Origin: Saccoglossus kowalevskii
Taxonomy: Eukaryota > Hemichordata > Enteropneusta > Harrimaniidae
Direction of reading: 5' to 3'
DNA: 20,069 nucleotides
Assembly: GCF_000003605.2 (NCBI RefSeq)
Contig: NW_003108085.1
Coordinates: forward strand, 252,079 to 272,147
Below are positions 1,231 through 20,069 of this stretch, piece by piece. The position numbers were made by a program, and so were the translations under genes. The first letter of the stretch is position 1. Each line of letters starts with the position of its first letter. The notes beneath the pieces are model-generated. The model saw nothing but the letters and a program-made list of their open reading frames with translations. It was not told where the DNA came from and searched no databases.

Positions 1231-1234
1231 TTAC

Positions 1235-1246: not shown

Positions 1247-1270
1247 CTAGGATTTTGCAAAAATACAAAA

Positions 1271-1677: not shown

Positions 1678-1805
1678 AGTGAAAAAAAAATACACAACAT
1701 TCAAAAATTGATAGGCATTAAAAAACTACTAGAGGTACATGCAGTGGATATGTTGGAAAAAAAGATTACATTTATTTAATGAACTGCCTTTAATTTATAC
1801 ATTTA

Positions 1806-3000
1806 TAGTTGCACAAACCAAGGGCAATAGTAACTGTACATGTCAAGGTCAATAGTAACTGCACAAATCTAGGGCAATAGTAACTGTGCATATCAAGGTC
1901 AATAGTAACTGCACAAATCAAGGGCAATAGTAACTACAAATCTAGGGCAATAGTAACTACAAATCAAGGGCAATAGTAACTGTACAAATCAAGGGCAATA
2001 GTAACTGTACAAATCTAGGGCAATAGTAACTGTACAAATCTAGGGCAATAGTAACTGCACAAATCAAGGGTAATAGTAACTGTATAAATCTAGGGCAATA
2101 GTAACTATAAATCAAGGGCAATAGTAACTGTACAAATCTAGGGCAATAGTAACTGTATAAATCTAGGGCAATAGTAACTGTACAAATCTAGGGCAATAGC
2201 AACTGCACAAATCAAGGTCAATGGTAACTGTATAAATCTAGGGCAATAGCAACTGTACAAATTTGGGCAATAGTAACTACAAATCTAGGGCAATAGTAAC
2301 TGTATAAATCTAGGGCAATAGTAACTGTACAAATCTAGGGCAATAGTAACTGTATAAATCAAGGGCAATAGTAACTGTATAAATCTAGGGCAATAGTAAC
2401 TATAAATCAAGGGCAATATTAACTGTACAAATTAGGGCAATAATAACTGTACAAATTAGGGCAATAGTAACTACAAATTTAGGGCAATAGTAACTGTACA
2501 AATCTAGGGCAATAGTAACTGTATAAATCTAGGGCAATAGTAACTGTACAAATTAGGGCAATAGTAACTGTACAAATCAAGGGCAATAGTAACTACAAAT
2601 CTAGGGCAATAGTAACTATAAATCAAAGGCAATAGTGACTGTTCAAATCAAGGAAAATAGTAACTGCACAAATTAGGGCAATAGTAACTGCACACATCAA
2701 GGGCAAAAGTAACTGTACAAATCTAGGGCAATAGTAACTGTACAAATCTAGGGCAATAGTAACTGTACAAATCTAGGGCAATAGTAACTGTACAAATTAG
2801 GGCAATAGTAACTGTATAAATCTAGGACAATAGTAACTGCACAAATTAGGGCAATAGTAACTGTATAAATCTAGGACAATAGTAACTGCACAAATCTAGG
2901 GCAATAGTAACTACAAATCTAGGGCAATAGTGACTGTTCAAATCAAGGAAAATAGTAACAACATAAATCAGGGGCAATAGTAACACCACAAATCTAGGGC
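1806..3000. repeat. Minisatellite, 24 bp monomer (zone 1)
   Basis: About 50 copies of a unit close to GGGCAATAGTAACTGTACAA followed by ATCT/ATCA/ATTA. Shortened variants of about 20 bp (AGTAACTACAAAT) are interspersed. It has no consistent open frame because the unit length varies. On the gene model it lies in the intron between the 12-nt candidates at 5226 and 1235. Confidence 0.97.
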
Positions 3001-5132: not shown

Positions 5133-5222
5133 ATTTAAATAGTTAAAGTAGCACTGACAAATAAGAAGGAATAAAACAGAAAAAAACGTTAAGGAAATTT
5201 TACATCTAGAATTATTATCATG
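5133..5222. other. Short AT-rich spacer
   Basis: Unique AT-rich sequence between the minisatellite and the microexon candidate at 5226. Nothing else is evident. Confidence 0.4.
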
Positions 5223-5225
5223 TAC

Positions 5226-5237
5226 CTGTTTCCAAAA
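5226..5237 (-). CDS. Candidate 12-nt microexon, phase 1-1 (VLET-type)
   Basis: On the minus strand TTTTGGAAACAG is preceded by a long pyrimidine tract (TCTCTCTTCCTCTGTC, then ATTCTAG) and followed by the donor GTACAT. With an incoming G it reads Val-Leu-Glu-Thr, phase 1 on both sides. It differs from the 1235-1246 candidate at two bases, both synonymous (GTG/GTT for Val, CTG/TTG for Leu). The acceptor is one of the best in the window. There is no independent proof that it is spliced into the transcript. Confidence 0.42.
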
Positions 5238-5266
5238 CTAGAATGACAGAGGAAGAGAGATTAAAA

Positions 5267-5308
5267 GAATCAATCAATCAATCAATCAATTAATTAATTG
5301 ATTGATCA
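5267..5308. repeat. (ATCA)n / ATTAATTGATTG simple repeat with dyad symmetry
   Basis: ATCA repeats pass through TTAATTAATT into TTGATTGATC, so the whole tract can fold on itself. It lies 5' of the pyrimidine tract of the 5226-5237 candidate on the minus strand. Confidence 0.85.
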
Positions 5309-5309
5309 G

Positions 5310-5820
5310 TTTTAAGAAACAGAATAAATTTTCATACTTTCCAACATCAGAGCTATATGGTGACAGTAATGGGATTATTTTTGTAATTTGGGAATGTTTT
5401 AAATTTAAAAAAAAATTATGCTAATTACCAAATTTATGCTAATGATCAAATTTATGTTAATTACCAGTAGAATTTCATATTGTTTATGGATTTTAATTGA
5501 TATTCTTGACATACACAAAAAAATGTTGATAGAAAGGCACTATTTTTGTGGAAGGTTACAAAAAGAAATGTAGCAGTGAAATGGTCAAAAAAGTACAGTG
5601 AAGAGACTCATAACAATTTAAATAGCGATCAGTGATGGCACAAAAACTAGTTCTATAAAAGGAACGTAACTTGTACAAATTGAAACGTATCGCTATTGTA
5701 TCGTATACTATCAAGTAATCTGAAAGGATGGTTGTCTATTTGTTTAAATGTTTGTTAATTCATTCCTCCAGTGTAAACTTCTGACCAACGGAAATGTGTA
5801 AAGGATGAAGAAAGATATAG
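5310..5820. other. AT-rich intronic stretch with small ATGCTAATTACC-like duplications
   Basis: No gene is seen. Around 5415-5465 the motif AAATTTATGCTAAT, with variants, repeats two to three times. Otherwise the sequence is unique and AT-rich. Confidence 0.5.
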
Positions 5821-5827
5821 ACTCTAC

Positions 5828-5839
5828 CTTTTGGTTTCC
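5828..5839 (-). CDS. Candidate 12-nt microexon, phase 1-1 (GKPK)
   Basis: On the minus strand GGAAACCAAAAG follows a long pyrimidine tract (CATCTTTATCATCTCATC, then TCGTTTCCAG) and precedes GTAGAG. A TAAT-like branch-point context (GCTAATTC) lies upstream. Joined to the preceding exon's last G it reads Gly-Lys-Pro-Lys and keeps phase 1. The same bases overlap a near-palindrome, GTTTCC-CT-GGAAAC, that resembles an RFX-type site, so the conservation-like look may have another cause. Confidence 0.35.
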
Positions 5840-5964
5840 CTGGAAACGAGATGAGATGATAAAGATGAGATGAATTAGCAAAAAGGAAGGTGAATAAAAT
5901 ACAATCAAGTTTTACCCCTCATTGATTCTACTGAAATAAACTATGTAACACAGGAACAATTTAA

Positions 5965-6204
5965 CCTTTTCACCGCCAGTCCCCTCTTTTTATCACAAAC
6001 TCACAAAATAGGCTCAGTTATAGTCTGCACTTTCCTTCAGAAGATTGGGACAAAATTAGCCAAATGTTTTGAGTAAAAACTGAAAATTGACTCAAATTTT
6101 GTCTGTTGGCTCCAAAATATTAGGGTTTATTTCTAGAAATATTGAAGTATAAAAGAAAAAAGTGTGCATAATAATTTGGGCGAGAAAGTTTTGGGGTGAA
6201 AAGG
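5965..6204. mobile_element. piggyBac-like MITE (240 bp)
   Basis: The ends are perfect inverted repeats, CCTTTTCACC at the left and GGTGAAAAGG at the right, each flanked by TTAA (5961-5964 and 6205-6208). A TTAA target duplication with CC-starting ends is the hallmark of piggyBac-family elements. There is no transposase frame inside, so it is a non-autonomous MITE. Its interior is shared with the diverged copy at 16880-17145. Confidence 0.82.
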
Positions 6205-6286
6205 TTAAAATTGCATATCCACTATGTATTCTAGGCAGAACATCAGCCACTGAGTGTTTTGATCAACATGCAAAATGATAAAATCA

Positions 6287-6300
6287 GTTGCTATGGCAAC
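6287..6300. promoter_or_regulatory. X-box-like (RFX) motif
   Basis: GTTGCTATGGCAAC is a near-perfect palindrome fitting the RFX X-box pattern (half-site, two-base spacer, half-site). Inference only: it lies in the intron below exon 6535-6774. RFX sites often mark ciliary or neuronal genes in animals, but a single match is weak evidence. Confidence 0.35.
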
Positions 6301-6534
6301 AAATTCTGATTCGAGCACTGAATCTAGCCTTGCAAGAAACGAGATCATGAAAATTTTAACTACTGAATCAATCATTCAGGGTCGTTTGCATGTCGCATTT
6401 TCACGTTCTCATGATTTATAATTAGCAGTTGAAAAAAAAAAAACGAAAATCAAAACTCACATCACTGAAAAATTCCTAATTTACAGTATATATTTATGCA
6501 AATAAAATAGAAACAAAATGGTAACCATAACTAC

Positions 6535-6774
6535 CTTGATCGGATTCAGAACTCGGTTCCGGCGAATTGACAGTTACGATGGGAATCATTTCTTGATTGG
6601 CTTCTTTGTTCTTGTTTCCACCGAACAGATTCTTCACCGAGTTCAGGAATCCGCCCGTATTCTTGACACTGCCCGCACTCTTCTTAAAAAGCAATGATTC
6701 GCTGCCATCTTTAGCGTCACTCTGTGAATTCTCGTTCACGTCTGGGACGAGTAGCGGTTTGAGTAACTCGGACG
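6535..6774 (-). CDS. Coding exon, phase 1-1, 80 codons (tail module ending PEPSSESDQ)
   Basis: The acceptor is TCTTTTTTTAG followed by CGTCCGAG; the donor is GATCAAG followed by GTAGTT. The encoded module starts SSELLKPLLVPDVNENSQSD, continues through Ser/Lys-rich sequence and a short, possibly amphipathic FLNSVKNLFGG segment, then NKNKEANQEMIPIVTVNSP and an acidic Ser-rich end. It is less AT-rich than the flanks and uses mixed codons, as expected of real coding sequence. The first codon is split, T from exon 8290-8412 plus CG, giving Ser. No known domain is visible. It is probably a disordered region with many potential phosphorylation sites. The next exon downstream is uncertain; the 12-nt candidate at 5828 fits in phase. 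Confidence 0.82.
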
Positions 6775-6870
6775 CTAAAAAAAGATACATTGTACATGTC
6801 ACCTTTAATATATGCAACTGATACTGTGAGTTTTATTCTCACTATTTTTGCTAATAAATGAAATTGACTA

Positions 6871-7078
6871 CTGTAGAATACTTTATTTTCGCTTGGAATT
6901 TATTTTCGCTATTTTCGCTGAAGGGATGATTTCGTGAAAATAAAATCCAGCGAATATACTTTTTTTCCTATATTTCACATTAAACTCGTCAAAAATCAGT
7001 GAAAATATATTCCATACACAACGCCCAAAAAGCCTTTTCAGCGAAAATTAATTCCAGCGAAAATAAAGTATTCCACAG
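6871..7078. mobile_element. TA-flanked MITE with TTTTCGC-rich terminal inverted repeats (208 bp)
   Basis: The left end CTGTAGAATACTTTATTTTC and the right end, whose reverse complement begins CTGTGGAATACTTTATTTTC, form terminal inverted repeats that continue through GCTGGAATT and ATTTTCGCT motifs. TA lies on both outer sides, consistent with Tc1/mariner-type insertion. There is no coding capacity. A partial inverted copy lies at 785-888. Confidence 0.82.
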
Positions 7079-7156
7079 TATATTAAAAGAATATGAACAT
7101 GTAAAATAATAATGAAATGTATCGTGTGTCATTCCCAAATGATGAACTCAAAAGCA

Positions 7157-7360
7157 AAGAGTTCTATTTGCATCCCCACCCCTAACCCCAAATCTAACAG
7201 TAACCCTCACCCCAAGCCCTCCAATTCAATTGTAAATGCCCACTCTAGATAAATACAATTGCCCTTAGGAAGAGTATATACAATTAAATTGCTGGAGTGC
7301 TGGAGGATAGGGGTAAGAAAAGTGTTAGGGATGGGGAATGCAAAAGAAAATCTTTCAAAC
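7157..7360. repeat. Long imperfect inverted repeat (fold-back element)
   Basis: The left arm contains TTTGCATCCCCACCCCTAAC and later CAATTCAATTGTA. The right arm, read on the reverse strand, gives TTTTGCATTCCCCATCCCTAAC and later CAATTTAATTGTA. The arms are about 70 bp each around a centre near 7260. C-rich and G-rich strands segregate between the arms. No clear target duplication was found, so the element type is undecided. Confidence 0.75.
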
Positions 7361-7532
7361 TCAGAATCCAGTAGATGTTTTCAAAACATTAAAATAGTGA
7401 AAATAAGTGGTTAACAGTATGCCCCACCAGTTTACCCGTTAATTTAACTTTAGAAAAATCAAATCTAGAAATAAATATTTCTAATTTTGTAAAATTAAAG
7501 TAAAATTTTGACTTTTTGAGTTTTTCACTCAC

Positions 7533-7556
7533 AGACTCTGCAGTTCAACACAGTTT
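7533..7556 (-). CDS. Candidate 24-nt small exon, phase 1-1
   Basis: On the minus strand the 24 bases start AAACTGTGTT and end AGAGTCT. The acceptor is TTTATTTGTCTCTGACAG and the donor a near-perfect GTGAGT. In phase 1 it reads TVLNCRV between split codons. After an exon ending in G (as 9216-9341 does) the first codon is GAA. After exon 8290-8412, which ends in T, it would be TAA, a stop. The last base T plus CG of exon 6535-6774 gives Ser. The splice signals are good, but the frame is too short to be telling. Confidence 0.33.
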
Positions 7557-7559
7557 CTG

Positions 7560-8100
7560 TCAGAGACAAATAAATGTACTGATTGGCATTGACGCTGCAG
7601 TTCGGCGTCTTCTACACCGATCTGACGCATATTGCGCAAGGTGTGCCGGGAGTTTGTTCGAAATTTCGTACGTTTCGAAGTCAATTGTTGATTGCCACGT
7701 ATTTTACGGATATATTAAATCATTTCAGAGACCTATTTACTAAATAATGATAAATGAAACTTAGAAAACTTGTAAGAACAAACTGGGCCCAAATTGCGCA
7801 AATTGCAATAAGTTTACGCTGCTAGAGTCTGGTTCGGATGGAGTTCTACGCGTGATTTTACTGCGCTCAAGGACGTTCTATTTTCGAACTAGTTGAAACC
7901 GGAAATAACGCAACTACTTTCGAACTTCAAACACAAATTTGATTATCGTTATTATGTGTTTCTGTTGTTTCAAAGATTGAATTATGTATGACAATAATAT
8001 TTCACTCTATAAACAATATTTCACTAAAATATGTGATTCAAACAAAGGCAACCCAAATTGTAAAAAGCAATATCAAGTTCCGCATATAAACACTGTTGTA
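7560..8100. other. Intron with CpG-richer islands, no exon recognised
   Basis: Patches at 7580-7690 and 7810-7920 are less AT-rich and contain CpGs, an ATTGG box (7580s) and an ACCGGAAAT ETS-like site (near 7898). That mix is what an internal promoter or enhancer might show, but no transcript start can be placed. Plus-strand frames here lack supporting features. Confidence 0.3.
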
Positions 8101-8199
8101 AAGAGGCGGCGGAGCAGAATTTTAGCCAAAATCGGCTAGTAAGGCGTCATATGACACAGGTTTGTGCTGGGACAGCGCTTCCGGTGACGACACAACGGA

Positions 8200-8275
8200 G
8201 GGACTGGTTCTTATATAGAGGTGGGTCACTATAGACAGGTGGTCTTTATATACTGACACAGGTTTGAGTGTGCTG
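8200..8275. repeat. Degenerate ~25-45 bp repeat of a GTGGTCTTTATA-like motif
   Basis: TTATATAGAGGTGGGTCACT, TATAGACAGGTGGTCTTTAT and a third partial copy follow one another, preceded and followed by GACACAGGTTTG (8156 and 8261 area). This looks like decayed minisatellite in the intron directly below exon 8290-8412. Confidence 0.5.
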
Positions 8276-8289
8276 TAGGGATTACTTAC

Positions 8290-8412
8290 AGTGGGAGGAA
8301 CCAAGATCATGTTCATAAGCTGAGTTATTAGAATTAATAGCTCCGTCTGGCATGGAAGTAGACGAAGCTAGGCTACTGCTGGATATATTCTTCTTCATTC
8401 CAGTATTCTCAA
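8290..8412 (-). CDS. Coding exon, phase 1-1, 41 codons (Ser/Asn-rich tail module)
   Basis: The acceptor is TTTTTTGTATTTTTAG followed by TTGAGAAT; the donor is CCCACT followed by GTAAGT. The module reads ENTGMKKNISSSSLASSTS, then MPDGAINSNNSAYEHDLGS and SH. It is polar, Ser/Asn-rich, with no hydrophobic core, so probably disordered. Its length is a multiple of three, so it can be skipped in frame. The outgoing T joins CG of exon 6535-6774 to give Ser. It must not be followed by the 7533-7556 candidate, because T plus AA makes a stop. Confidence 0.8.
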
Positions 8413-8419
8413 CTAAAAA

Positions 8420-8627
8420 TACAAAAAACAAAAACAAAAAAAAAACAAAAATTATAAAGTATCTAAAATATAAAATTATATCTTTTGTGAACTTTCCTGA
8501 AATTTCATAAAAGTCAGGTTGTGTAAAGGATGCTAAAAATATTCAGTTCTACTGAAAATTTTAATAAAAATGTGTCTTTTCAGAGACAAAAACAAATTCA
8601 CTATCAATCAGCTTTTTTTTTTAAATG
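8420..8627. other. AT-rich intronic stretch
   Basis: An A-run-rich segment forms the pyrimidine tract of exon 8290-8412 on the minus strand. Beyond it the sequence is unique and AT-rich, with no exon seen. Confidence 0.5.
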
Positions 8628-8907
8628 CAAGCAAGCTACTTTATTACATGATTGTATCTGATTGGCTACTGGGCCCTAACATCTACCAGACAGACCAATC
8701 ACAGAGCAGCTTGTTTGTTGACAGGCAAGCTACTTTACATGATTGTATCTGATTGGCTACTCGGCCCTAACATCTACCAAACAGACCAATCACAGAGCAG
8801 CTTGTTTGTTGACAGGCAAGCTACTTTACATGATTGTATCTGATTGGCTACTCAGCCCTAACATCTACCAAACAGACCAATCACAGAGCAGCTTGTTTTT
8901 TGACAAG
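8628..8907. repeat. 91 bp direct tandem repeat, three copies
   Basis: ATTGTATCTGATTGGCTACT recurs at 8651, 8742 and 8833, exactly 91 bp apart. Each unit also carries GACCAATCACAGAGCAGCTT, so it holds ATTGG and CCAAT in inverted orientation and can fold. Apparent ORFs across it simply follow the repeat. Confidence 0.93.
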
Positions 8908-8999
8908 TATTTTTGACAAATAAAATTTAGGCTTGTATGTTAAAAAATTACTGCTGTAATAGAACAATAATTCCAGAAAGCACCAGGATGTATGCCAAT

Positions 9000-9185
9000 T
9001 CGGTGTGCTCTGATTGGCTTGGCAGGTAGGTGTTAAGGTTCTGTAGCCAATCAGATACAATCTTGTAAACATTTTCATAACTAACATAAGAGGAGAAATT
9101 TGATTGGCTATAATTTGTGTAATAAGACATTTGTATCCAATCAGCAACAACCTTATAATTTTGTAGCCAATCAGCAACAACCATC
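9000..9185. repeat. Inverted, diverged copies of the 91 bp unit
   Basis: CTCTGATTGGCTTGG and GTAGCCAATCAGATACAATC are the reverse complement of the unit at 8628-8907. GTAGCCAATCAGCAACAACC follows twice more near 9122-9184. The direct and inverted copies together make a large potential fold-back structure inside the intron between exons 9216 and 8412. Confidence 0.8.
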
Positions 9186-9215
9186 TAAGTATTAGATGAA
9201 TAAATTGAGATCTAC

Positions 9216-9341
9216 CTTTATTATCAACTTTAGTATTTTTATTCAGATTATTTTCATTGACTGTGTGGCTGTCTGAAGTTTGAATGCTGTATGTAGTAGA
9301 CACAGACATCGTCTCACCACTGTTAGCACCGTGAACTTTAC
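9216..9341 (-). CDS. Coding exon, phase 1-1, 42 codons (Thr/Ser/Asn-rich tail module)
   Basis: The acceptor TTTTGTTTTTTCTTGTCAG precedes GTAAAGTTCAC; the donor is AATAAAG followed by GTAGAT. With the incoming G the module reads GKVHGANSGETMSVSTTYS, then IQTSDSHTVNENNLNKNTKV and DNK. It has no aromatic or hydrophobic core beyond single residues and is likely disordered and phosphorylatable. Ends are G/GT-type, so it joins exon 11318-11383 upstream and exon 8290-8412 (as Val) or the 7533-7556 candidate (as Glu) downstream. Confidence 0.82.
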
Positions 9342-9539
9342 CTGACAAGAAAAAACAAAATATCAGATGGTAACATGAGTTGTCAATGATCACGACAACC
9401 ACAAGGACAGACATCTGCCCTGCTATTCCTTGCTGTCTAGATTTATTAAAGGAAAATATGGCATTGACAAAAATTGCAGATGTATATCCATATAGTCATG
9501 ATCATCTTGGAGAATCTGTTCAAAATCATTATCATAGAG
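9342..9539. other. Unique intronic sequence
   Basis: This segment lies between the exon acceptor and the 81 bp minisatellite. It shows no repeat unit or exon, though the last part (from about 9535) grades into the array. Confidence 0.4.
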
Positions 9540-11180
9540 AGTCTGGACCATCTAACTGCACTGTAATTGTCAATAGACTCCCTAAGCATAAGAACACAGT
9601 TTGAGACCTTTAACCTAGAGGGTCTAGTCCACCCAACTGCATTGTAATTGTTAATAGACTCCCTAAGCCTTGTAACACAGTTGGAGACCTTTAACCTAGA
9701 GGGTCTGGTCCATCCAACTGCACTGTAATTATTAATAGACTCCTTAAGCCTTGGAACACAGTTTGATACCTTTAACCTAGAGGGTCTGGTCCATCCAACT
9801 GCACTGTAATTGTTAATAGACTCCCTAAGCCTTGGAACACAGTTTGAGACCTTTAACCTAGAGGGTCTAGTCCACCCAACTGCATTGTAATTGTTAATAG
9901 ACTCCCTAAGCCTTGGAACACAGTTTGAGACCTTTAACCTAGAGGGTCTGGTCCATCCAACTGCACTGTAATTGTTAATAGACTCCCTAAGCCTTGGGAA
10001 ACAGTTTGAGACCATTAGCCTAGAGAATCTGGTCCACCCAACTGCACTGTAATTGTTAATATACTCATTAAGATTTGGAACAGAGTTTGAGACTTTTAAC
10101 CTAGAAAGCCTGGTCCATCCAACTACACTGTAATTGTTAATAGACTCCCTAAGCTTTGGAACACAGTTTGAGACCTTTAATCTAGAGGGTCTGGTCCACC
10201 CAACTACACTGTAATTGTTAATAGACTCCCTAAGCCTTGGAACACAGTTTGAGACCTTTAACCTAGAAAGCCTTGTCCATCCAACTGCACTGTAATTGTT
10301 AATAGACTCCTTAAGCCTTGGAACACAGTTTGATACCTTTAACCTAGAGGGTCTGGTCCACCCAACTGCACTGTAATTGTTAATAGACTCCCTAAGCCTT
10401 GGAACACAGTTTGAGACATTTAACCTAGAGGGTCTGGTCCACCCAACTACACTGTAATTGTTAATAGACTCCCTAAACTTTGGAACAGTTTGAGACCTTT
10501 AACCTAGAGAGCCTGGTCCACCCAACTGCACTGTAATTGTTAATGGACTCCCTAAGCCTTGGAACACAGTTTGAGACCTTTAACCTAGAGGGTCTGGTCC
10601 ATCCAACTGCACTGTAATTGTTAATAGACTCCCTAAGCCTTGGAACACAGTTTGAGACCTTTAACCTAGAGGGTCTAGTCCACCCAACTGCACTGTAATT
10701 TTTAATAGACTCCCTAAGCCTTGGAACACAGTTTGAGACCTTTAACCTAGAGGGTCTGGTCCATCCAACTGCACTGTAATTGTTAATAGACTCCCTAAGC
10801 CTTGGAACACAGTTTGAGACCTTTAACCTAGAGGGTCTAGTCCACCCAACTGCATTGTAATTGTTAATGGACTCCCTAAGCTTTGGAACACAGTTTGAAA
10901 CCTTTAACCTGGAGGGTCTGGTTCACCCAACTGCACTGTAATTGTTAATAGACTTCCTAAGATTTGGAACACAGTTTGAGACCTTTAACTTAGAGGGTCT
11001 GGTCCACCCAACTGCACTGTAATTGTTAATAGACTCCCTGAGTCCTGAAACACAGTTTGAGACCTTTAACCTAGAGGGTCTGGTCCACCAAAGCACCATG
11101 CATCAGCCCACAGGTCAAGACCATCAACCTAGAAGAGTCTGAACCCCCTAACTGCACTTTAATTGTTAATGGACTTCCTA
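9540..11180. repeat. Minisatellite, 81 bp unit, about 20 copies
   Basis: Each unit contains GGTCTGGTCCACCCAACTGC, then CTGTAATTGTTAATAGACTC, CCTAAGCCTTGGAACACAG and TTTGAGACCTTTAACCTA. Copies are 85-98% alike by eye; the edge copies at 11080-11180 are the most diverged. Since 81 is divisible by three, a 27-residue repeat stays open on the minus strand for part of the array, but later copies break it. It lies in the intron between exons 11318 and 9341. Confidence 0.97.
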
Positions 11181-11317
11181 AATGTTTATAATTGAACTTC
11201 TACACAAATCATGATTAACATTATTCCGTTATATGCTGCAATGAAACTGAACATCAGCATCTTGTATTGAACAACATCTCAAAATTTGAACATGTGGTCA
11301 ACCTTAGTGAGTCTCAC

Positions 11318-11383
11318 CTTTAGAGTGTTCAGTAGATGCAGCGTTGGTGCTCGTCGAATTCTTAGGTGTTCGATTACCGCCAC
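11318..11383 (-). CDS. Coding exon, phase 1-1, 22 codons (GGNRTP module)
   Basis: The acceptor GTTTTATCTATTATTAG precedes GTGGCGGTAATC; the donor is TCTAAAG followed by GTGAGA. The module reads GGNRTPKNSTSTNAASTEHS plus K. Its start resembles the start of the large exon 12840-13829 (GGNATPTANRK), and its middle resembles the end of exon 15532-15746 (STTNAATTSSSGNA). This suggests tail modules arose by exon duplication. It is polar and Thr/Ser/Asn-rich, a likely disordered linker, and can be skipped in frame. Confidence 0.8.
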
Positions 11384-11389
11384 CTAATA

Positions 11390-11845
11390 ATAGATAAAAC
11401 ACACAAAAGTCACACAAATTTTACATAATATACATGCAAGATCAAACTTGGTCAAAATATTCAACCAATAGACAATTTGCAGGTTTCAAGAGTGTGTTGT
11501 ACGTTAGTTTTGTTAGCAATTCAGCAGACTTGTTCGATGTTCGTGTATGCAGAGAATTATCAATAGCTCAAGCTTAATCAAATTTGTACATAGCAGCTTA
11601 GGGTTCACAGTGGTATTATACCAAGAATGTTTATCTTATGTTAACTAACTACAATTATGAAAATTACAAACAGCAGACAATTAAGACGGAATGGGTAAAA
11701 ATACCATGTGACACAAAAACACAACAACAACGACAACAACGTGAACAGGTCAGACAAATGTCATATATGTTCATTAAGAAAATATTCAAGTTGGAAAATG
11801 ATCTGCTAAAAGTAATTCTAGGCATTGAGACAACAACAAATGTTA
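11390..11845. other. Intron, AT-rich, with (CAA)n-like patch
   Basis: No exon is seen. CAACAACAACGACAACAACG-type low complexity lies near 11720, just upstream of the SINE. Confidence 0.5.
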
Positions 11846-11847
11846 CT

Positions 11848-12290
11848 GGTCACTGGTAGCATAGTGGTTGTCGCATCAGACTCATGGCCGGTAGACCCAA
11901 GTTCAAATCCTACTTTAGGCTGAACATCTATCCCTACCCTGGGTGAATGTGCCACAGACTCGATGGGAAGGCCTATTCCACTGGCCGAGATTTATTCACT
12001 CACGAATGCGACTTTGGGAGAACATTGGTTAAGGTCCACAGGTGCTTGTGTTCGACTGAGCCTGGTCGATGCCAGGATAGCGCATTAAAATTGCCATTTG
12101 ATAGGAAGATGGCCGCACAGCCCTGTCATGTTGTCCCAAATATGAATATGACTTCTGTGGCTAAAATGCACTATGTGTCAGCACTAGCACTTGCAATTGC
12201 ACATACAAACAAAATCAGGAGAGACAACAGTGACTTCCAATGTCGCCTGGCACAAAAATTTAAAAAAAAACAAAAAAACGCAACAAAAAA
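11848..12290 (+). mobile_element. tRNA-derived SINE
   Basis: A pol III A box, TAGCATAGTGG (11857-11867), and a B box, GTTCAAATCC (11901-11910), sit at tRNA-like spacing. Between them lies CAGACTCATGGCCGG, which resembles an anticodon arm with CAT. A body of about 330 bp follows and ends in an A-rich tail near 12250-12290. It is less AT-rich than its surroundings. The acceptor-stem pairing is poor, so it is a SINE head, not a functional tRNA gene. It lies antisense in the intron between exons 12840 and 11383. Confidence 0.75.
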
Positions 12291-12389
12291 ACACCAACAA
12301 CGTAGACAGGTGACGGATGTCACTTGCATGAAGAATGAAGGGACTGAGCTTTCTGCTCAAAGTTCACAAAAACAGAGGGAGTAACACCA

Positions 12390-12790
12390 TACAATAGAAT
12401 AGCTTCATTTAAACTCTCGGAGAGCCAAGTCATCTGTCACCTTCCATTAAATAAACATGCATAAACATATGCATTTTTTCCCCGTAAATTTTGATCCATA
12501 TATATCCATATATCCATTATATAAAAAATACATAAAAAATGTGCAAAATGCTGCAGCACAATTATTTAGATTAGACATAATGCAGAGTTCAGTTTAGACA
12601 GAGTTCTAGTTCAAACAGGATTCATTTTACAAAGTGTTGAGTTTGACTCGGAGAGTTTCAAGTTTAAACTGGTTTCAAAACACAGGGTTTCAATGGTTAA
12701 GTTTAAAAAGGTTTCCAAGTTAACATCAGTTCCAGTTGTATTGAAGATGTTGAATAAAAATGTCTATTTCTGGCAGAAACAAAACTAACC
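12390..12790. other. Intron with degenerate AGTTTCAAGTTTAAA-like repeats
   Basis: From about 12585 to 12735, GAGTTC, AGTTTAGAC, GAGTTTGAC, AGTTTCAAGTTTAAAC, GGTTTCAA and similar short words follow one another, as in an old microsatellite. An ATATATCCATATATCC patch lies near 12500. No exon is seen. Confidence 0.45.
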
Positions 12791-12839
12791 ATTTATAATA
12801 GCAAACACACAAAAGAAAGAAAAAAAAAATGAAACATAC

Positions 12840-13829
12840 CTTTTTTATTTTTGTCATCTTTTGATAAATTAGCAACTGATCCATTTTTCTTTTGACTTTT
12901 ATTACTCTGTATGGATGTTCCGGTGAATGGACGCGGCTTGCCTTTTGCAGTTGGTTTTTTATCCAGTTTATTGCTTGGTTTGTTCGTTCCTACGTCTGTT
13001 TCTTTTTTTGTCTGAGAGGATCGTTTCGCTGATGATTGTCTGGATGATGTTTTAACGGAAATATCATCTCGTGGGGAATCTCTGCCATTTTTGTTATTAA
13101 CATTTTCGGACTCGTTTTTTTTCGTATTCTCGTTATCAATCTTTGATTCACTTTTCACGTTCTTATCTTTCACTGGTGCGTCAATTTTTGGAGTTGCGTC
13201 AATCAAACCAGATGCCTCGCTTTTTTTGTTTGCGTCCACAGAATGAGCAGGTACAACAATTGGCTCAACCATGTCATCGGCTGTGTGTATTTCAGCAGCG
13301 GTTGTCAGTTTCATGGAACTTTCAGTTTTTATTTTCGTATCCATGTTGCTTACTGGCGTGTTTGCTGCTGCAACGACTGGAACATTTATTGGAGGACTTT
13401 CCTTGACGACCGTCTTTTCAGCGGCTGACGTTTTGTCTATTATTTTCATTCCTTCATCGCTGTGCATTGTTTCAACAGGCACAGCAATCGCGATGCCTTG
13501 TTTCCTATTAACAGCCGTACCACTTTTTTTCTCTTCAGTTCTATCAGACTCCTTCTCCCTCGGCGACTCCGGAATTTTCGAATCTGTCACTTTTTTTTCT
13601 TTAGATTCAGTTTCCTTACGAGGTGCAGTGCTAGTAATTTCCTTTTTCGTTTCTTGCACTGTCTTTTCTCTTGGCGAATCCAGTGCTTTTTTGTCTAGTG
13701 AGGTGGCATGAGCTTTCTTTTCACGTGGAGATTCCACTTTTTCTTTATCAGCTAAGGAGCCTGTGCCTTCTGATCCGATTGTGAAGTCAAATCGTGACTT
13801 TCTATTGGCTGTTGGTGTTGCATTACCCC
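12840..13829 (-). CDS. Large coding exon, phase 1-1, 330 codons (SPREK-repeat, Lys/Ser/Glu-rich)
   Basis: The acceptor TTTTCACCATTTTAG precedes GGGGTAATG; the donor is AATAAAAAAG followed by GTATGT. It begins GGNATPTANRKSRFDFTIGS. In the first third the motif SPREK recurs (VESPREK, LDSPREK, PESPREK), with a related RDSPRDD near the end. Pairs of Lys/Glu-rich and Ser-rich stretches follow, and the last part is basic (RSSQTKKE, KLDKKPTAKGK, SQKKNGS). No transmembrane or catalytic motif is visible. SPR/SPK sites suggest proline-directed or basophilic kinase targets. The exon is long and symmetric. It could be a cytoskeleton-, microtubule- or scaffold-binding tail, but that is only inferred from composition. 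Confidence 0.88.
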
Positions 13830-13869
13830 CTAAAATGGTGAAAATTGCAGTGGAAAGAAACAACAAACA

Positions 13870-14049
13870 AACAAACAAGATTTATTATATCAGTGATAGA
13901 TGGATTAAGTCCTGTTCTATTCTATAGATTCCTATAAAAATTTCATGGAATTTTTAAAAATCCTATAGAAAACTTTAGAATTTAATGGAGCTTTGGCAAA
14001 TTATCCATTAAATTCACAATATTGAAATTGAATTCACAATATAGTATTT
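13870..14049. other. Intron, AT-rich
   Basis: It begins with a short (CAAA)n run near 13860-13880. The rest is unique and AT-rich with no exon seen. Confidence 0.4.
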
Positions 14050-14560
14050 TTATAGAAGAGACATTTTAAGATAACAGTGACATTTTACCAACAATGAACA
14101 ACAGTATGCATTTTTCAAACTGTCAAAAAAATAGTTAATGATCACAGACAGAAACGCTACAGACAACGATAACAATGACAGACCTTTACCCACAATGGAA
14201 TATATCTCACACAAACTCTAAAAATAAAAATTTTGTTAGTGAGCACAGATCAGACAAAAACACTACAGACTATGATAACAATGAAAAACCTTTACTCTCA
14301 ATGGGGAACAACAGAATGCACTTTTTAAACTCCCTAAAATTAAAAAACAAAAACAAATTTGGTTAGTGTGCCACACAAACGCTACAGACAACGATGACAC
14401 TGACAGATCTTTACCCACAATGGAAAACAACAGTGGAATATATCTCACACAAACTCTAAAAAAAACAAATTTTGTTAGTGAGCACAGACCAGACAGAAAC
14501 GCTACAGACAACGAAGACACCGACAGACAGTTACCTCTTAGGTGTGATGTATTCTTCAAA
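14050..14560. repeat. ~110-120 bp tandem repeat, four to five copies
   Basis: Units contain ACGCTACAGACAACGA, TGACAGACCTTTACCCACAA, CTCACACAAACTCTAAAAA and TTTTGTTAGTGAGCACAGA. Copies start near 14050 (diverged), 14154, 14262, 14378 and 14500. Frames on both strands across it follow the repeat and are not genes. Confidence 0.85.
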
Positions 14561-14582
14561 GATGAAGGGCTTTGAAATTTAC

Positions 14583-14612
14583 CTGCAATAGCGTTTGTCA
14601 CGGTTATAAATT
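14583..14612 (-). CDS. Candidate 30-nt small exon, phase 1-1
   Basis: The minus-strand exon starts AATTTATAACC and ends GCTATTGCAG. The acceptor is CATATTTTTGTAAG and the donor GTAAAT. With the incoming G it reads EFITVTNAIA, then G for the next exon, so it fits exactly between exons 15532-15746 and 12840-13829. Length and phase match the other modules. The acceptor tract is only moderate. Confidence 0.33.
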
Positions 14613-15300
14613 CTTACAAAAATATGGCCAGCATGACCTATTAAATAGATTTTAACTAAGTTTTGGTCTCTTTTTTTTATAAAATGTTTATGAAATTGAG
14701 TAGGATATGGGAATTTGCAAAACTTCTGCAGAAAATCTTCTAGACAATTACAATCCATTAATTTTCGATCAAAATCTATGCAATTCAATGGAAATTATTC
14801 AGATAATTTCCATAAATTTTTTTTAGGAAATTTCATGAGTAAATGAAAATCAACAAATTTTGTAATAATGAAATTTTTTTTTGGAGTGCTGTTCTGCGAC
14901 ATGAAGAGTCAGTAATTTTCGCAAAATATTGTCTTCCCGAATGTAATAAAATGCAAGTTTTAAATTTTGTTACCGGAAAAATATCTAAAAACTACACCCA
15001 TCTCGAATCAATCATAGATATTCACAGCTAAGTTCAAAAATGAGATATCTGGCTGGATCCAGAACACAAGGCTGTGCCAACCTTTCCCAAGTAAAACAGA
15101 ATGAAAACGCTCCTATACTGTGAGTTGTCGTTTAAAAGGTAGCTGTTGTCGCGCTGCGCATGTTCAACATTTGTGTTGATAAACATTGAATTTCCCACAA
15201 TTCAATGTGCTCTTCTAATGGAAATCACAAGTATGAGGTTTGACCTGGGCGTGACTTACACTAATTACCGACGGTGACTCCTTCAATACCTTCCAATCAC
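14613..15300. other. Intron, AT-rich left part and CpG-richer right part
   Basis: The part up to 15030 is AT-rich with no exon seen. From about 15120 to 15300 there are more CpGs (GTCGCGCTGCGCATG, ACCGACGGTGAC), consistent with the neighbourhood of an internal promoter. Confidence 0.35.
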
Positions 15301-15311
15301 ATGAAAATTAC

Positions 15312-15376
15312 CTAATTAAAGCTTGGTAATGTCTCAGTTTGTACTCGTTGATCTGCGCAACAGTCAAAGTCGCCAT
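15312..15376 (-). CDS. Candidate alternative first coding exon (MATLTVAQINEYK)
   Basis: On the minus strand AAAGATGGCGACT offers a good initiation context and a YY1-like AAGATGGC core. The frame runs MATLTVAQINEYKLRHYQ, then ALI, and ends at AG followed by GTAATT, phase 2. Amino-acid composition looks protein-like. A TATATAA lies only about 8 bases before the ATG, too close to serve as its TATA box. Phase 2 does not fit the phase 1 exons downstream. It does fit the start of exon 15532-15746, which lies on the wrong side. So it may be a chance frame, a first exon needing an unseen partner, or an assembly-order problem. Confidence 0.28.
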
Positions 15377-15531
15377 CTTTGTTTATATAATATGAGACCC
15401 ATATAACTCACGCAAATTATAAAATGATCGGGAAATCAGCCATAGAAGTATAAAGATATTTTCCACACTTGAATGCACGTAACCAACGACAAAGACAAAA
15501 TTTTTCAGAGAATAAAATAAAAACATCTCAC

Positions 15532-15746
15532 CAGCATTTCCTGAGCTGGAAGTAGTTGCAGCATTTGTAGTACTTGGATTCACCGCAACCTCCTCTTTAA
15601 TCTCAGTGCCCCGGATCCTGCTCGACTTCGGTCGTAGCCTTCCACTGATTGGACGCACCGGTGCATGAATCATTTCCGGCTTCCCAGTCGCTGGATCTAA
15701 CATTATCATTTCGGCCCTTTCCAAAAAGGTCATGAACTCTGGCCAA
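15532..15746 (-). CDS. Coding exon: EF-hand exit helix plus start of tail
   Basis: The acceptor GCTCTTCCCTCGCTTTTAG precedes TTGGCCAGAG; the donor is AATGCTG followed by GTGAGA. It enters in phase 2 and leaves in phase 1. The first residues, with the split codon as Ser, are SWPEFMTFLERAEM. Here Glu sits at loop position 12, followed by Phe and the hydrophobic pattern of an EF-hand F helix, so the loop itself must be in the preceding exon. Next come IMLDPATGKPEMIHAPVRPI and SGRLRPKSSRIRG, a basic linker, then KEEVAVNPSTTNAATTSSSG. The open frame continues upstream of the acceptor without an ATG, but the EF-hand break and acceptor argue for splicing here. Confidence 0.78.
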
Positions 15747-15789
15747 CTAAAAGCGAGGGAAGAGCATTCACGGATGAGCAAAGAAGATT

Positions 15790-15803
15790 GTCGCCATGGA
15801 AAC
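15790..15803. promoter_or_regulatory. X-box-like (RFX) motif, imperfect
   Basis: GTCGCCATGGAAAC has two X-box half-sites with an AT spacer and one mismatch in the right half. It lies 130 bp from a better match at 15934. Confidence 0.25.
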
Positions 15804-15933
15804 TCTTCCCTCGCCCCTGGTCCACTCGGATTTCAATTGTACACGTAAGCGAGACAGATGACGTGAACACAAAATACAAGATAAGCAAGACTTGTTAGTG
15901 TTGATTTGATTTGTTGATGTTGAGAAGATGAGT

Positions 15934-15947
15934 GTCGTCATGGCAAC
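15934..15947. promoter_or_regulatory. X-box-like (RFX) motif
   Basis: GTCGTCATGGCAAC fits GTNRYC-NN-RGYAAC fully. It lies in a CpG-containing stretch 190-400 bp upstream, on the minus strand, of exon 15532-15746, along with a TGACGTGAAC CRE-like half site near 15857. Inference: possible enhancer or alternative promoter. Confidence 0.35.
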
Positions 15948-16032
15948 AGTGACACTGCATCATTACATGCATTCGTGAGCGAAGTAAAAGATGAAAGTGA
16001 AAGACTAGTGGATAGAAAGAGTTTTTTGTAAG

Positions 16033-16160
16033 ATGTTTTTAGTTGAAAGCATTGAGACAGATTTCACACACTGTATTGATGATGGCTTTCTTGGAATCTT
16101 AGCGGAACCGATGTTGGGCAGAGTCGTGACTTTTACGGAAAGGCAACCACAGGAGGAAAA
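16033..16160. other. Less AT-rich block, open on both strands, unassigned
   Basis: About 120 bp with balanced composition. The minus strand can be read TTLPNIGSAKIPRKPSSIQ, then CVKSVSMLSTKN; the plus strand has MFLVESIETDFTHCIDDGFL. Neither has convincing splice sites or a recognisable domain. It could be a remnant of a dispersed element or an unrecognised exon. Confidence 0.25.
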
Positions 16161-16199
16161 AAAAATTAAAAAAAGCGATTGTGTTTTTTTTTTCTTGTC

Positions 16200-16390
16200 G
16201 GAATTTCATACTTCATATGCATATCACATTCACAAAATTTAATTCAGCTACATTTCTGATTACCATATTTGGAATTTCATACCTTATTTGCATATCACAT
16301 GCATATAATTAAATTCAGAAACTATTGATCACCATATTAGGGAATTTTTACCTTATTTGCATATCACTCCACATATACATTACCATATTA
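16200..16390. repeat. Degenerate ~70 bp repeat, about three copies
   Basis: GGAATTTCATACC, TTATTTGCATATCAC and ATTACCATATT recur at about 16200, 16271 and 16340. The units carry ATTTGCAT octamer-like words by composition. There is no coding. Confidence 0.75.
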
Positions 16391-16875
16391 GATGACCTGT
16401 TCACCATATATGGTCAACATATTACCTTATTTGTCCATTCTTCTCATCATCACATCTGTTCAGTAAACTATTTAGTAACCCACCATGTACTGGTAAATGA
16501 AATTCTTCACAAATTTTTTTCATCTAAAAAATAATTGTGAGAATACAATTTTAAGGAAGAAAAAAAAAATTAGGAAAAAATACAACTTCTATGAGTTCAT
16601 CACCCTTTTAAACCACTTTTATAAATTTTCAAAATTTACCTAATTTTCTCCAAACTTCTGATCAAGACTTGTAGTCAATGGAAAATTATGCTAATTTTTC
16701 CACAATTGTGAACAAAAATTATGCAAGAAAATTAACAAACTTTTGGTAGAAGAAAATTGTGATACTCAAAAAGTTTGAACGTTTCGTGGTATATTCACTG
16801 TAAATCGCCTTAATTCCGTGAGAGACACATTTTTTGCGAATTTTGTGTGACAGTAGCAAACTTTGTAGCAGTGAA
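16391..16875. other. AT-rich intronic stretch
   Basis: No gene, exon or clear repeat is seen. Several A and T runs occur. Confidence 0.45.
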
Positions 16876-16879
16876 GATT

Positions 16880-17145
16880 TTTCTGCTTTCCTATCACACA
16901 ACATGTCCTCAATGACATTTTTCTACAATTTTCAAAATAGTTCCATTTATAGTCTGCACTATAAATCAGAAGATGTTTCAGTAGATCGAAACAAATATAG
17001 CACATTTTTTGAGTAAAACTGAAAATTGACTGAAATTTTGTCTGTGTGGACTCCAAAATTAGTGTTCATTTCCAGAAATTTTGAAGAATATAAAAGGAAA
17101 GTGATGAAAAATTTGGGCCAGAAAGCATGGTGGTGTGAAGGTTAA
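16880..17145. mobile_element. Diverged copy of the TTAA-flanked MITE
   Basis: It shares with 5965-6204 the blocks TATAGTCTGCACT, TCAGAAGAT, TTTTGAGTAAAA-CTGAAAA, TTGACT-AAATTTTGTCTGT, CTCCAAAAT and TTTCCAGAAAT-TTGAAG, in the same order and strand. The right end GGTGTGAAGG is followed by TTAA (17142-17145). No matching left terminus was found, so the left end is lost or mutated. Confidence 0.78.
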
Positions 17146-17279
17146 AAACATTGGCATTGGAGTAAAGTGCATTTCAAAAAGTAGTTTTACAGTTAACCTT
17201 AATACTAAACTTGACTGCTATAATTGCATGGAAACTGCATTTTGATCACATGTAAATGACATGCAAATGATGTCATGGT

Positions 17280-18085
17280 ATGGGCATGCTATGAGTCTAT
17301 ATCTGGAAATGCTGATTGTCACTTAGCAATTCATATAAGCATGCACATATCAGTAGCATGCACTTATTGTCATGGCAGTTACATGTACATGTTATGCGCA
17401 TGCTATGAGTCTATATCTGAGAATGCTGTCACTTGGCAGTTCATACAAGCATGCACATATCAGTAGCATGTACATATTGTCATGGCAGTTACATGTACAT
17501 GTTATGCGCATGCTATGAGTCTATATCTGAGAATGCTGTCACTTGGCAGTTCATACAAGCATGCACATATCAGTAGCATGTACATATTGTCATGGCAGTT
17601 ACATGTACATGGTATGCGCATGCTATGAGTCTATAACTGAGAATGCTGTCACTTAGCAGTTCATACATGTATAAGCATGCACATATCAGTAGCATGCACA
17701 AGATGTCAGGGCTGTTGCATGGTACTAGTATGCACATGCTATGAGTCTGTATTTGGAAATGATAACTAGTGCTTAGCAGTTCATATAAGCATGCACATAT
17801 CAATAGCATGCACAAGATGTCAGGGCTGTTGCATGGTACTAGTATGCGCATGCAATGAGTCTGTATTTGGGAATGATAACTAGTGCTTAGCAGTTCATAT
17901 AAGCATGCATATTTCAGTAGCATGCACATGATGTCATGGCAGTTGCATGGTACTAGTATGCGCATGCAATGAGTCTGTATTTGGGAATGATAACTAGTGC
18001 TTAGCAGTTCATATAAGCATGCATATTCCAGTAGCATGCACATGATGTCATGGCAGTTGCATGGTATGCGCATGTTATGAGGCTG
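17280..18085. repeat. ~110-115 bp tandem repeat, eight units
   Basis: GCATGCTATGAGTCTATATC recurs near 17284, 17398, 17508 and 17618 at 110-114 bp spacing. More diverged units follow near 17732, 17848, 17963 and 18072. Units are rich in GCATGCACAT and TACATGTACATG, alternating purine-pyrimidine words. The last four units form a subfamily with GGTACTAGTATGC. Long minus-strand frames here follow the repeat. Confidence 0.93.
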
Positions 18086-18109
18086 TATCTGTAGCATGCA
18101 CATGTAATT

Positions 18110-18430
18110 ATTATTTTAGTGAATCCTTAATTTCACTTTGAGATAATTTCTAAAGCTTTATTGACATCTTGAAATATGAAGTGGAATATTGTAATTTTTT
18201 ATTTTTAGTGGATTAAGAGAAATACAGTACTATATATTTTTTTAAGACATGAGTGCCAGATTTTTTTTACACCCAAAATTTAGTTATTTTATTCTCACTT
18301 TTTGTAAAATTTTCACTAAATTTCATCACATTTTTTTGTCCAGACAGACAAGTTCAGATATTGCCTTTAGTTTTTGATCAAAAGATTTGTCAGTTTTTAT
18401 CAACATGTATTATGTATTAACTCTGTGCAG
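18110..18430. other. AT-rich intronic stretch
   Basis: T-runs and A-runs with no supported exon or repeat. Confidence 0.45.
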
Positions 18431-18434
18431 TGGT

Positions 18435-18710
18435 TTATCACGTGTCCGTATATACTACGTATACGTAGGAATACGTTAGACAGCATTGTTCTGCATTAGG
18501 TGTACGTTAATGTGCGCACTGTATACTTCCGGTCTCCGTAAATACACTGCTGTGTATATTTGCGTATCAGTATGTTCCGAATGTGTGAATATACGTTACG
18601 TATTCCCCGTACATACGTTGAATGTACGTGTGCGCCAACCAACGTATATTTTCGAATATTGGGAATATACGCGTACGAATACGCTAATGTATACCATATA
18701 CCAACGATTT
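18435..18710. repeat. CpG/ACGT-rich block of short dyad symmetries
   Basis: TACG, ACGT and CGTATA words are packed densely: CGTATATACTACGTATACG, ATACGTTACGTAT, CGTACA and TGTACG with a 9-base spacer, and CGTATATT with AATATACG around a 13-base spacer. CpG frequency is far above that of neighbouring introns. No unit of fixed period was found. Open frames on both strands are a result of composition. Confidence 0.55.
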
Positions 18711-18826
18711 TGCCCAGTGAAAAAAGCAGACTATACAGAATTATTTTGTAGATGGTGCAGAAAGTTGACAATGGCACACAAAATGTACAGTAAGATAGAT
18801 TGCTGTGGAGATAGTTTAGATTCTTA

Positions 18827-19122
18827 GGCCAGACTTTTATTATCCCTTGTTTTTACCGCCCGCTGCACTACAAAATCCAAGTTGCATTTTTGTGGAAGTA
18901 TCATGATCAAAGTACCGAAGTCTCGCGCAGATGAGAAACAAGGTTTTACATGAAATAAAATTGTATTTCATTTCTTCTCTCCGATCAATAATCTCACTTA
19001 CAATTCTTTGAGAATCACACAAATCTAATGGAAAAAATAAATTAATTTTATTTTTTTTCTGCCCTCCTCAAAAAAATTGCCTTATAAAAACCCGAGAAAC
19101 AAGGAATAAAAAAAGTCTGGCC
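18827..19122. mobile_element. Harbinger-like MITE (296 bp)
   Basis: The left end GGCCAGACTTTTATTATCCC and the right end, whose reverse complement begins GGCCAGACTTTTTTTATTCC, are terminal inverted repeats of about 26 bp with roughly two mismatches. TTA lies immediately outside both ends (18824-18826 and 19123-19125). A 3 bp TTA duplication is typical of PIF/Harbinger elements. There is no transposase inside. One minus-strand frame contains an EF-hand-like word (YFDHDTSTKM), but no fitting donor follows. Confidence 0.78.
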
Positions 19123-19125
19123 TTA

Positions 19126-19424
19126 CCAAAAAAAAATTCATGACTTATGTCTGAGTCAATAATTGCACAAAATTTAAAAAAAATTAAATAATAAAAATAT
19201 GTTGAATGACCTTTACATTCAATTCACAATAATTGTCATCATGCCAGAAAATTTCAGATCATTTCAGGTTCCAACTTTATTGCATATTTCAGTTTTATTT
19301 GTTAATGCTCTTCAACCCATGTGGATTCAAAAACATTATGTTGAATCATTCTGACTCGCTGCAATACGAAACAATATCATATCCACATGAAATATGTGTG
19401 ACACTACAGAAACCTGATAATCAA
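19126..19424. other. AT-rich intronic stretch
   Basis: No exon or repeat is identified between the MITE and the EF-hand exon array. Confidence 0.4.
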
Positions 19425-19483
19425 CACTAGATGGCGCCGTAACATTATAGAGGGCAGTATAAGTGCAATATTTGTATTCTCAC

Positions 19484-19558
19484 CTGTTTTTTCTCAAGCT
19501 GACCACTTTGTTCTTTGTCTCTCTCCTTAAACACCGCCCTGAGGTCATTCAACTCAAA
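19484..19558 (-). CDS. EF-hand-type exon, copy 1 (25 codons)
   Basis: The minus-strand frame reads FELNDLRAVFKERD, an EF-hand entering helix, then loop DKEQSGQLEKKQ, with Asp1, Glu3, Ser5, Gly6, a hydrophobic residue (Leu) at 8 and Gln at 12, where Glu is usual. The donor is AAACAG followed by GTGAGA. The acceptor is either CTCAGAG (75 bp, phase 0-0) or CTCAG (77 bp). The phase 0-0 choice would let copies be joined in frame. This copy has the most intact loop. Calcium binding is doubtful because position 12 is Gln and position 3 is Glu. Confidence 0.68.
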
Positions 19559-19661
19559 CTCTGAGCTAAATTAATATGCACATTTTCCCCCTGGATAATG
19601 AACACTAGAGGGCAGTGTAACATTATAGAGGGCAGTATAAGTGCAATATTTGTATTCTCAC

Positions 19662-19736
19662 CTGTTTTTTCTCAAGCTGAAAACTTCGTCTTTTGTCTCT
19701 CTCCTTAAACACCGCCCTGAGGTCATTCAACTCAAA
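19662..19736 (-). CDS. EF-hand-type exon, copy 2 (loop altered)
   Basis: Same helix as copy 1, but the loop reads DKRRSFQLEKKQ: the conserved loop Gly6 is Phe and position 3 is Arg. Splice signals are intact (AAACAG then GTGAGA). By family rules this loop should not bind calcium normally. It may be a non-binding variant module or a decaying exon. Confidence 0.6.
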
Positions 19737-19838
19737 CTCTGAGCTAAACTAATATGCACATATTTCCCCAGATAATAAACAATAGAGGGCAGTGTAACAT
19801 TATAGAGGGCAGTATAAGTGCAATATTTGTATTCTCAC

Positions 19839-19913
19839 CTGTTTTTTCTCAAGCTGACCACTTCGTCCTTTGTCTCTCTCCTTAAACACCACCCTGAGGT
19901 CATTCAACTCAAA
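19839..19913 (-). CDS. EF-hand-type exon, copy 3
   Basis: The helix reads FELNDLRVVFKERD (Ala to Val) and the loop DKGRSGQLEKKQ. Gly6 is present, but position 3 is Gly. Splice signals are intact. Position 12 is Gln as in copy 1. Confidence 0.62.
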
Positions 19914-20016
19914 CTCTGAGCTAAACTAATATGCACATATTTCCCTCAGATAATAAACACTAGAGGGCAGTGTAACATTATAGAGGGCAGTATAAGTGCA
20001 ATATTTGTATTCTCAC

Positions 20017-20069
20017 GTGTTTTTTCTCAAGCTGACCACTTCGTCCTTTGTCTCTCTCCTTAAACACCA
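20017..20069 (-). CDS. EF-hand-type exon, copy 4, truncated by the window edge
   Basis: The visible part reads VFKERDKGRSGQLEKKH. The last exon base before GTGAGA is C instead of G (AAACAC), which weakens the donor and changes Gln to His. The 5' part of the exon lies beyond 20069. Confidence 0.55.

Follow-up and report, generated by a model that had tools for sequence, protein, structure and literature searches.

A tandem array of EF-hand exons in an apparent calcium-sensor-like gene of Saccoglossus kowalevskii, probably captured by near-neutral local duplication

Does a run of nearly identical EF-hand exons in the hemichordate Saccoglossus kowalevskii offer a gene selectable versions of a calcium sensor, or has a local tandem duplication caught an exon? 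The exons lie at one end of the stretch of DNA that was analysed as a whole, called the window here (20,069 nucleotides; positions 252079-272147 of contig NW_003108085.1, abbreviated C255), and the genome searched comprised 572 Mb in 4830 contigs. A preliminary description had reported four copies of an exon plus intron every 177-178 bp. The EF-hand exon array was confirmed: Tandem Repeats Finder returned a single array at 19416-20068 with a period of 178, 3.7 copies and 94% matches, and the copy-to-copy distances were 178, 177 and 178 bp. The units were read as follows, with the coordinates of the window.

19416-20068, minus strand: EF-hand exon array, head to tail, unit of 177-178 bp, at least four copies, the fourth cut (Tandem Repeats Finder)
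19484-19558, minus strand: exon core of copy 1, last in gene order, FELNDLRAVFKERDKEQSGQLEKKQ, donor CAG/GTGAGA (translation)
19662-19736, minus strand: exon core of copy 2, FELNDLRAVFKERDKRRSFQLEKKQ, Phe instead of loop Gly6 (translation)
19839-19913, minus strand: exon core of copy 3, FELNDLRVVFKERDKGRSGQLEKKQ (translation)
20017-20069, minus strand: exon core of copy 4, VFKERDKGRSGQLEKKH, cut by the window end, donor CAC/GTGAGA (translation)
19566-19661, minus strand: intron separating copies 2 and 1, 96 nt with a TTTAG acceptor or 101 nt with CTCAG (sequence)
19439-19483, minus strand: 45-nt donor-side intron block of copy 1, invariant in 4 of 4 copies, starting in the others at 19617, 19794 and 19972

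On the minus strand each unit encodes the peptide FELNDLRxVFKERDKxxSxQLEKKQ, ending in His in copy 4. Translation of the four copies gave the loops DKEQSG, DKRRSF, DKGRSG and, with the terminal His, DKGRSG, in agreement with the earlier reading. The His of copy 4 had been listed as a peptide difference; the change is indeed present, and because this G-to-C, Gln-to-His substitution is also the last exon base, it alters the donor site too. Identity among the copies was about 91-98%, from column counts. Right after the last base of the window 11,468 N begin, which may be an assembly gap, and the copy number is therefore a lower bound. The array unit, searched in the whole genome with a program that skips very common words, gave four matches, every one inside the array. 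Copy 1 forms the array edge, and its outer intron is the most diverged of the copies; edge copies of tandem arrays usually are.

The identification of the repeated exon as an EF-hand was borne out by partner exons, which together with a family match place the array in a gene. The exons that follow the array in gene order are listed below.

16426-16523, minus strand: next exon, MKKICEEFHLPVHGGLLNSLLNRCDDEKNGQI, start of EF-hand 2 (translation; profile match of the spliced product)
15532-15746, minus strand: exon after that, WPEFMTFLERAEMIMLDPATGKPEM..., reading WPEFMTFLERAEMIML..., end of EF-hand 2 (translation; profile match)
12840-13829, minus strand: long Lys/Ser-rich exon, probably of the same gene (frame-consistent, phase 1 to 1)
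8290-8412, minus strand: probable exon of the same gene (frame-consistent)
6535-6774, minus strand: probable exon of the same gene (frame-consistent)

Spliced to its two partner exons, an array copy supplies the first hand of an EF-hand pair that matches Pfam DUF5580_M. The match scored 45.2 bits with copy 1, 39.2 with copy 2, 44.7 with copy 3 and 44.3 with copy 4, whose query borrowed the first half of copy 3 because copy 4 is cut. The curated cut-off of 24 bits was passed with each single copy, and the score was 23.7 bits without any copy. Residues 2-70 of the one-copy query aligned to profile positions 18-86; as the two segments are equal in length, the spacing of the family fits a single copy. 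Two copies in tandem, with copy 1 placed before copy 2 and so opposite to gene order, reached 46.4 bits, barely above one copy. DUF5580_M was the better family match, since EF-hand_7 gave only 37.2 bits with copy 1. Compared with solved structures, the spliced sequence was closest to radial spoke protein 7, an EF-hand protein (entry 8snb), EFCAB6 and calmodulin; the query used for this comparison had Leu where the DNA encodes Met at the exon junction, and the DUF5580_M scores use Met. We take DUF5580 (Pfam PF17743, PF20742 and PF20743) to be the family of human C1orf87. In the literature, DUF5580 returned no papers by name, and C1orf87 was in no title or abstract among the matches listed. Judged from the sequence, the array appears to sit in a functioning gene whose product is probably calcium-sensor-like.

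Exon-wise genome searches with PF17743 (N-terminal) and PF20743 (C-terminal DUF5580) gave no match and found 0 of 14 controls, so that absence is not implied; the same search with DUF5580_M also returned nothing, again with 0 of 14 controls, which says little for split exons. The best matches of a protein search of the genome outside this gene had E values of 0.06, 0.2 and 0.3. The scanned parts of C255:283616-316399 yielded neither an upstream exon nor the 5' end of the gene. No Pfam match above the curated cut-off was obtained on the minus strand of window positions 1-19850, with stops read as X, or in C255:283616-301389, 301400-305514 and 311400-316399. Reading frames of at least 85 codons in C255:271400-331399 were inspected by eye. 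Two candidate 12-nt microexons of phase 1, at 5828-5839 and 5226-5237 on the minus strand, were also picked out by eye and match the other phase-1 exons of the gene.

One option in the preliminary description was that the copies form a selectable cassette by which a calcium sensor is tuned. Position 6 of an EF-hand loop is usually Gly; this Gly is kept in three of the four copies and is Phe in copy 2. At position 12 all four copies carry Gln or His and none carries Glu or Asp; the usual residue there is Glu, with Asp in about 10% of loops, in the account of PMC9177970. With Glu or Asp at position 12 and Gly at position 6 as the marks of a canonical calcium-binding EF-hand, the first hand is not one, and the loop of the second hand, DDEKNGQISWPE, carries Asp, Gly and Glu at positions 1, 6 and 12. 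Because position 12 is non-acidic in every copy, a tuned calcium site is doubtful. The first EF-hand may be structural, and may yet have a role in binding.

Equal substitution in exons and introns had been named as a test of the cassette, and the comparison was run. Variable columns numbered 7/75 in the exon and 13/104 in the intron, with no measurable difference (Fisher P = 0.63); copies 2 and 3 differed at 4/75 exon and 6/104 intron positions, and the lowest Fisher P of the six pairwise exon-intron comparisons was 0.10. With rates that did not differ, a non-acidic position 12 in 4/4 copies and no loop Gly in copy 2, the proposed tuning was not sustained, and the other option raised at the time, one working exon with relaxed extra copies, fits better. 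Every exon difference is nonsynonymous, as had been stated (7/7 variable columns), though by chance alone about one set in five would look the same. The expected synonymous share of single changes in the array exon is about 20-23%, so that 0/7 synonymous has P 0.16-0.20, or 0.21-0.26 when the adjacent GGT-to-TTT pair is taken as one event. The 12-residue loop holds 6 of the 7 changes (P = 0.05-0.08), or 5 of 6 events (P = 0.09-0.13). The 45 nt adjoining the donor showed no variation in all four copies. When the outer 25 and 9 unit columns were dropped, a trimming decided on once the data had been seen, variable columns numbered 7/75 in the exon versus 1/70 in the flanking intron (P = 0.06), an excess that could hint at diversifying change or at a kept intronic signal. 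From four copies, these counts demonstrate neither positive nor purifying selection, and seven exon changes are few.

These counts bear on a functional mutually exclusive exon set, in which each mRNA would take one copy and the resulting EF-hand 1 variants would bind ions or partners differently, in the manner of the alpha-actinin EF-hand exons. The wholly nonsynonymous differences and their concentration in the loop speak for such a set, but divergence is similar in exon and intron, the absence of synonymous changes falls short of significance, and copy 2 fits DUF5580_M worse. Known functional cases are mostly ancient as PMC9741552 presents them, whereas the present copies are about 91-98% identical. 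The layout is that of a mutually exclusive cluster, since homologous exons lie side by side and agree in length and frame (three full copies and one cut), and open frames, splice signals and length are kept in the copies. Their splice sites are nevertheless nearly identical, so that little is visible by which they could be told apart. On balance we regard a functional set as unlikely, even with the features of the reading frame that follow.

Of the AGs beside the exon, TTTAG, CTCAG and CAGAG occur in each of the three copies whose acceptor is inside the window; copies 2 and 3, but not copy 1, also have a fourth one, TATTAG. The exon measures 75 nt with CAGAG, 77 nt with CTCAG, 82 nt with TTTAG and 87 nt with TATTAG. 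When the exons are 77 or 82 nt long, the joins 3+2 and 3+2+1 hit a stop at most four codons into the second copy, and skipping every copy also gives a stop codon. Because both joins and skips stop, use of a single copy is likely to be enforced by the frame, provided that splicing takes TTTAG or CTCAG as its acceptor. This holds for two of the four candidate acceptors and accords with a mutually exclusive set, as does the report that 60% of human clusters hold exons of length not divisible by three (PMC5740500).

With TTTAG or CTCAG the introns between copies are 95-101 nt. Introns of about 100 bp had been said often to block the splicing of neighbours, an argument that turned out weak: PMC7969005 puts the limit for steric exclusion at a donor-to-branch-point distance of about 50 nt, 95-101 nt leaves room, and exclusion would require a branch point unusually far upstream. 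Among human clusters, 9% have less than 50 bp from donor to branch point (PMC5740500). Acceptor permitting, the reading frame, with its stops on joining 77- or 82-nt exons, is a stronger argument for exclusion than intron length.

With 75- or 87-nt exons (CAGAG or TATTAG), joined copies stay open. The array could then be a case of repeat growth, in which successive copies of a symmetric exon are joined in frame, giving a protein with several EF-hand 1 segments in a row. The family score is kept by the tandem two-copy query (46.4 bits), and the upstream AG of a close pair is preferred at mammalian NAGNAG sites (PMC3250501), a preference that by analogy might make TATTAG the chosen site in copies 2 and 3. 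At acceptor position -3, however, C or T is favoured (PMC3250501): TTTAG and CTCAG carry the favoured base and CAGAG has the unfavoured G, while 7/7 other acceptors of the gene have T or C by eye, five of them from inferred exons. Copy 1 is without TATTAG, and the partner EF-hand is single, so added first hands would be unpaired. We consider repeat growth improbable.

It is also conceivable that the visible copies are by-products of decay that are never spliced, with a working EF-hand 1 exon inside the run of N. The array does run into 11,468 N, the donor of copy 4 is altered, the loop of copy 2 is damaged, and the array acceptors have weak pyrimidine tracts by eye. Copies 1 and 3, on the other hand, appear intact and score as high as any, and this reading is very unlikely. 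A frame-locked splicing lottery, finally, would combine, in a growing array of nearly identical exons, equivalent splice sites with a near-random choice of copy; only single-copy transcripts would be productive, first-hand variants would be mixed without a regulatory code, and copy number would be free to vary between individuals. We give it little chance.

The array itself, its position before the partner exons, the sufficiency of one copy for the family match and the lack of a measurable difference in divergence between exon and intron were observed directly, and the explanation that we judge probable is that a near-neutral local tandem duplication captured the EF-hand exon, with one copy used at a time. 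In this account the gene encodes an EF-hand pair like that of the DUF5580 middle domain, and one of its internal exons would have been caught in a minisatellite-like duplication of about 178 bp, together with about 70 bp of the intron downstream and about 30 bp of the intron upstream. The window holds nine substantial tandem arrays, which together account for 41% of it, so a tandem duplication that engulfs an exon needs no special explanation. The copies would then be drifting about as fast as their own introns. One copy per transcript would be expected, as joins and skips break the frame with TTTAG or CTCAG, and faulty splice products would go to nonsense-mediated decay. The choice of copy would probably follow splice-site strength and order, not a regulated programme, and the loop differences would have little effect, the first loop being a non-canonical calcium site in every copy. 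If the copies are neutral, the locus is a clean case of a tandem repeat absorbing an exon without visible gene breakage, and a caution against reading nonsynonymous differences among a few copies as selection. If all copies are used, it would be a young exon array caught early, of use in studying how mutually exclusive exons might arise through reading frame alone and ahead of any regulation.

RNA pairing was compared with shuffled sequences. Inter-copy intron hairpins gave z values of -3.3 (19568-19661), -0.6 and -3.5, and +0.7 after copy 1; because the hairpin is absent in one of the three inter-copy introns, there is no sign of its upkeep. For duplexes between donor side and acceptor side, equally good shuffles numbered 7, 22 and 27 per 1000 for copies 3, 1 and 2. 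Donor-acceptor arm pairing was -18.8, -16.1 and -16.3 in the three inter-copy introns and -17.6, -12.1, -6.1, -0.9 and -8.4 (the last one base off) in five other introns of the gene model. Pairing in the array was thus stronger than in 4/5 control introns; the exception, the intron after copy 1, is not independent because it uses the donor of the array. We treat splice-arm pairing as an open lead only. A docking site was sought in the downstream intron (16524-19410) with three query blocks, for which 24/60, 17/60 and 3/60 shuffles were as good. No clear site emerged, two blocks being no better than shuffles and the acceptor-side block marginal (3/60), with its best partner in a 114-bp tandem array. 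A search of the window against Rfam, at gathering thresholds, gave 0 matches.

A further motif recurs in the array.

19424-19437, 19602-19615 and 19957-19970, plus strand: CTCF-core-like motif in copies 1, 2 and 4, consensus CCASYAGRKGGCRS, one mismatch

We presume CCASYAGRKGGCRS to be the CTCF-core consensus, and the motif is a candidate by that consensus. Three occurrences were found in the window, all in the array and downstream of the exon, with 0.07 expected; being copies of one unit, they count as one event. The motif of copy 1 is the CpG-bearing form ACACTAGATGGCGC. CTCF has links to splicing (PMC8373115), and the motif is regarded as a candidate lead only. Were copies chosen near-randomly, as in the lottery described above, the inter-copy hairpins and this motif might bias the choice.

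Several known systems resemble the array in part. In ACTN1 and ACTN4, as described in PMC9741552, homologous neighbouring exons encode the same EF-hand segment and calcium binding is kept in only one of the two exon forms; there the exons form a pair, whereas the candidate set here has at least four near-identical copies, none acidic at position 12. OGDH exons 4a and 4b (calcium-insensitive and calcium-sensitive) likewise differ in the calcium loop with a short intron between them, but exclusion there comes from distant branch points, which lie only 25-41 nt away from the donor (PMC7969005). Dscam-type docking and selector arrays, for which PMC6071210 sets out an origin model, share the tandem exon with adjacent intron and possible stem-loop arms; the present array is without a clear docking site in the downstream intron. 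With the DUF5580 family the gene shares a middle domain with an EF-hand pair (45 bits), and differs in the long Lys/Ser-rich tail that seems to follow. Minisatellites are known to take in an exon. The 178-bp head-to-tail unit, the most diverged copy at the edge and the other arrays nearby recall such exon-containing minisatellites, although the unit here carries a complete coding exon with both splice sites.

Among the other repeats, two large arrays lie at 1813-5128 (25-bp unit, 137 copies) and 9535-11089 (81-bp unit, 19 copies); the latter is crossed by minus-strand frames of 350 and 149 codons and is apparently intronic. The run of N at C255:272148-283615 opens inside the EF-hand exon array, and the repeat that follows these 11,468 N resembles, by eye, the 143-bp tandem repeat at window positions 1-424. 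A second run of N occupies C255:305516-310406. Beyond it, a plus-strand reading frame at C255:329740-329994 is armadillo repeat-like by eye and probably belongs to the next gene.
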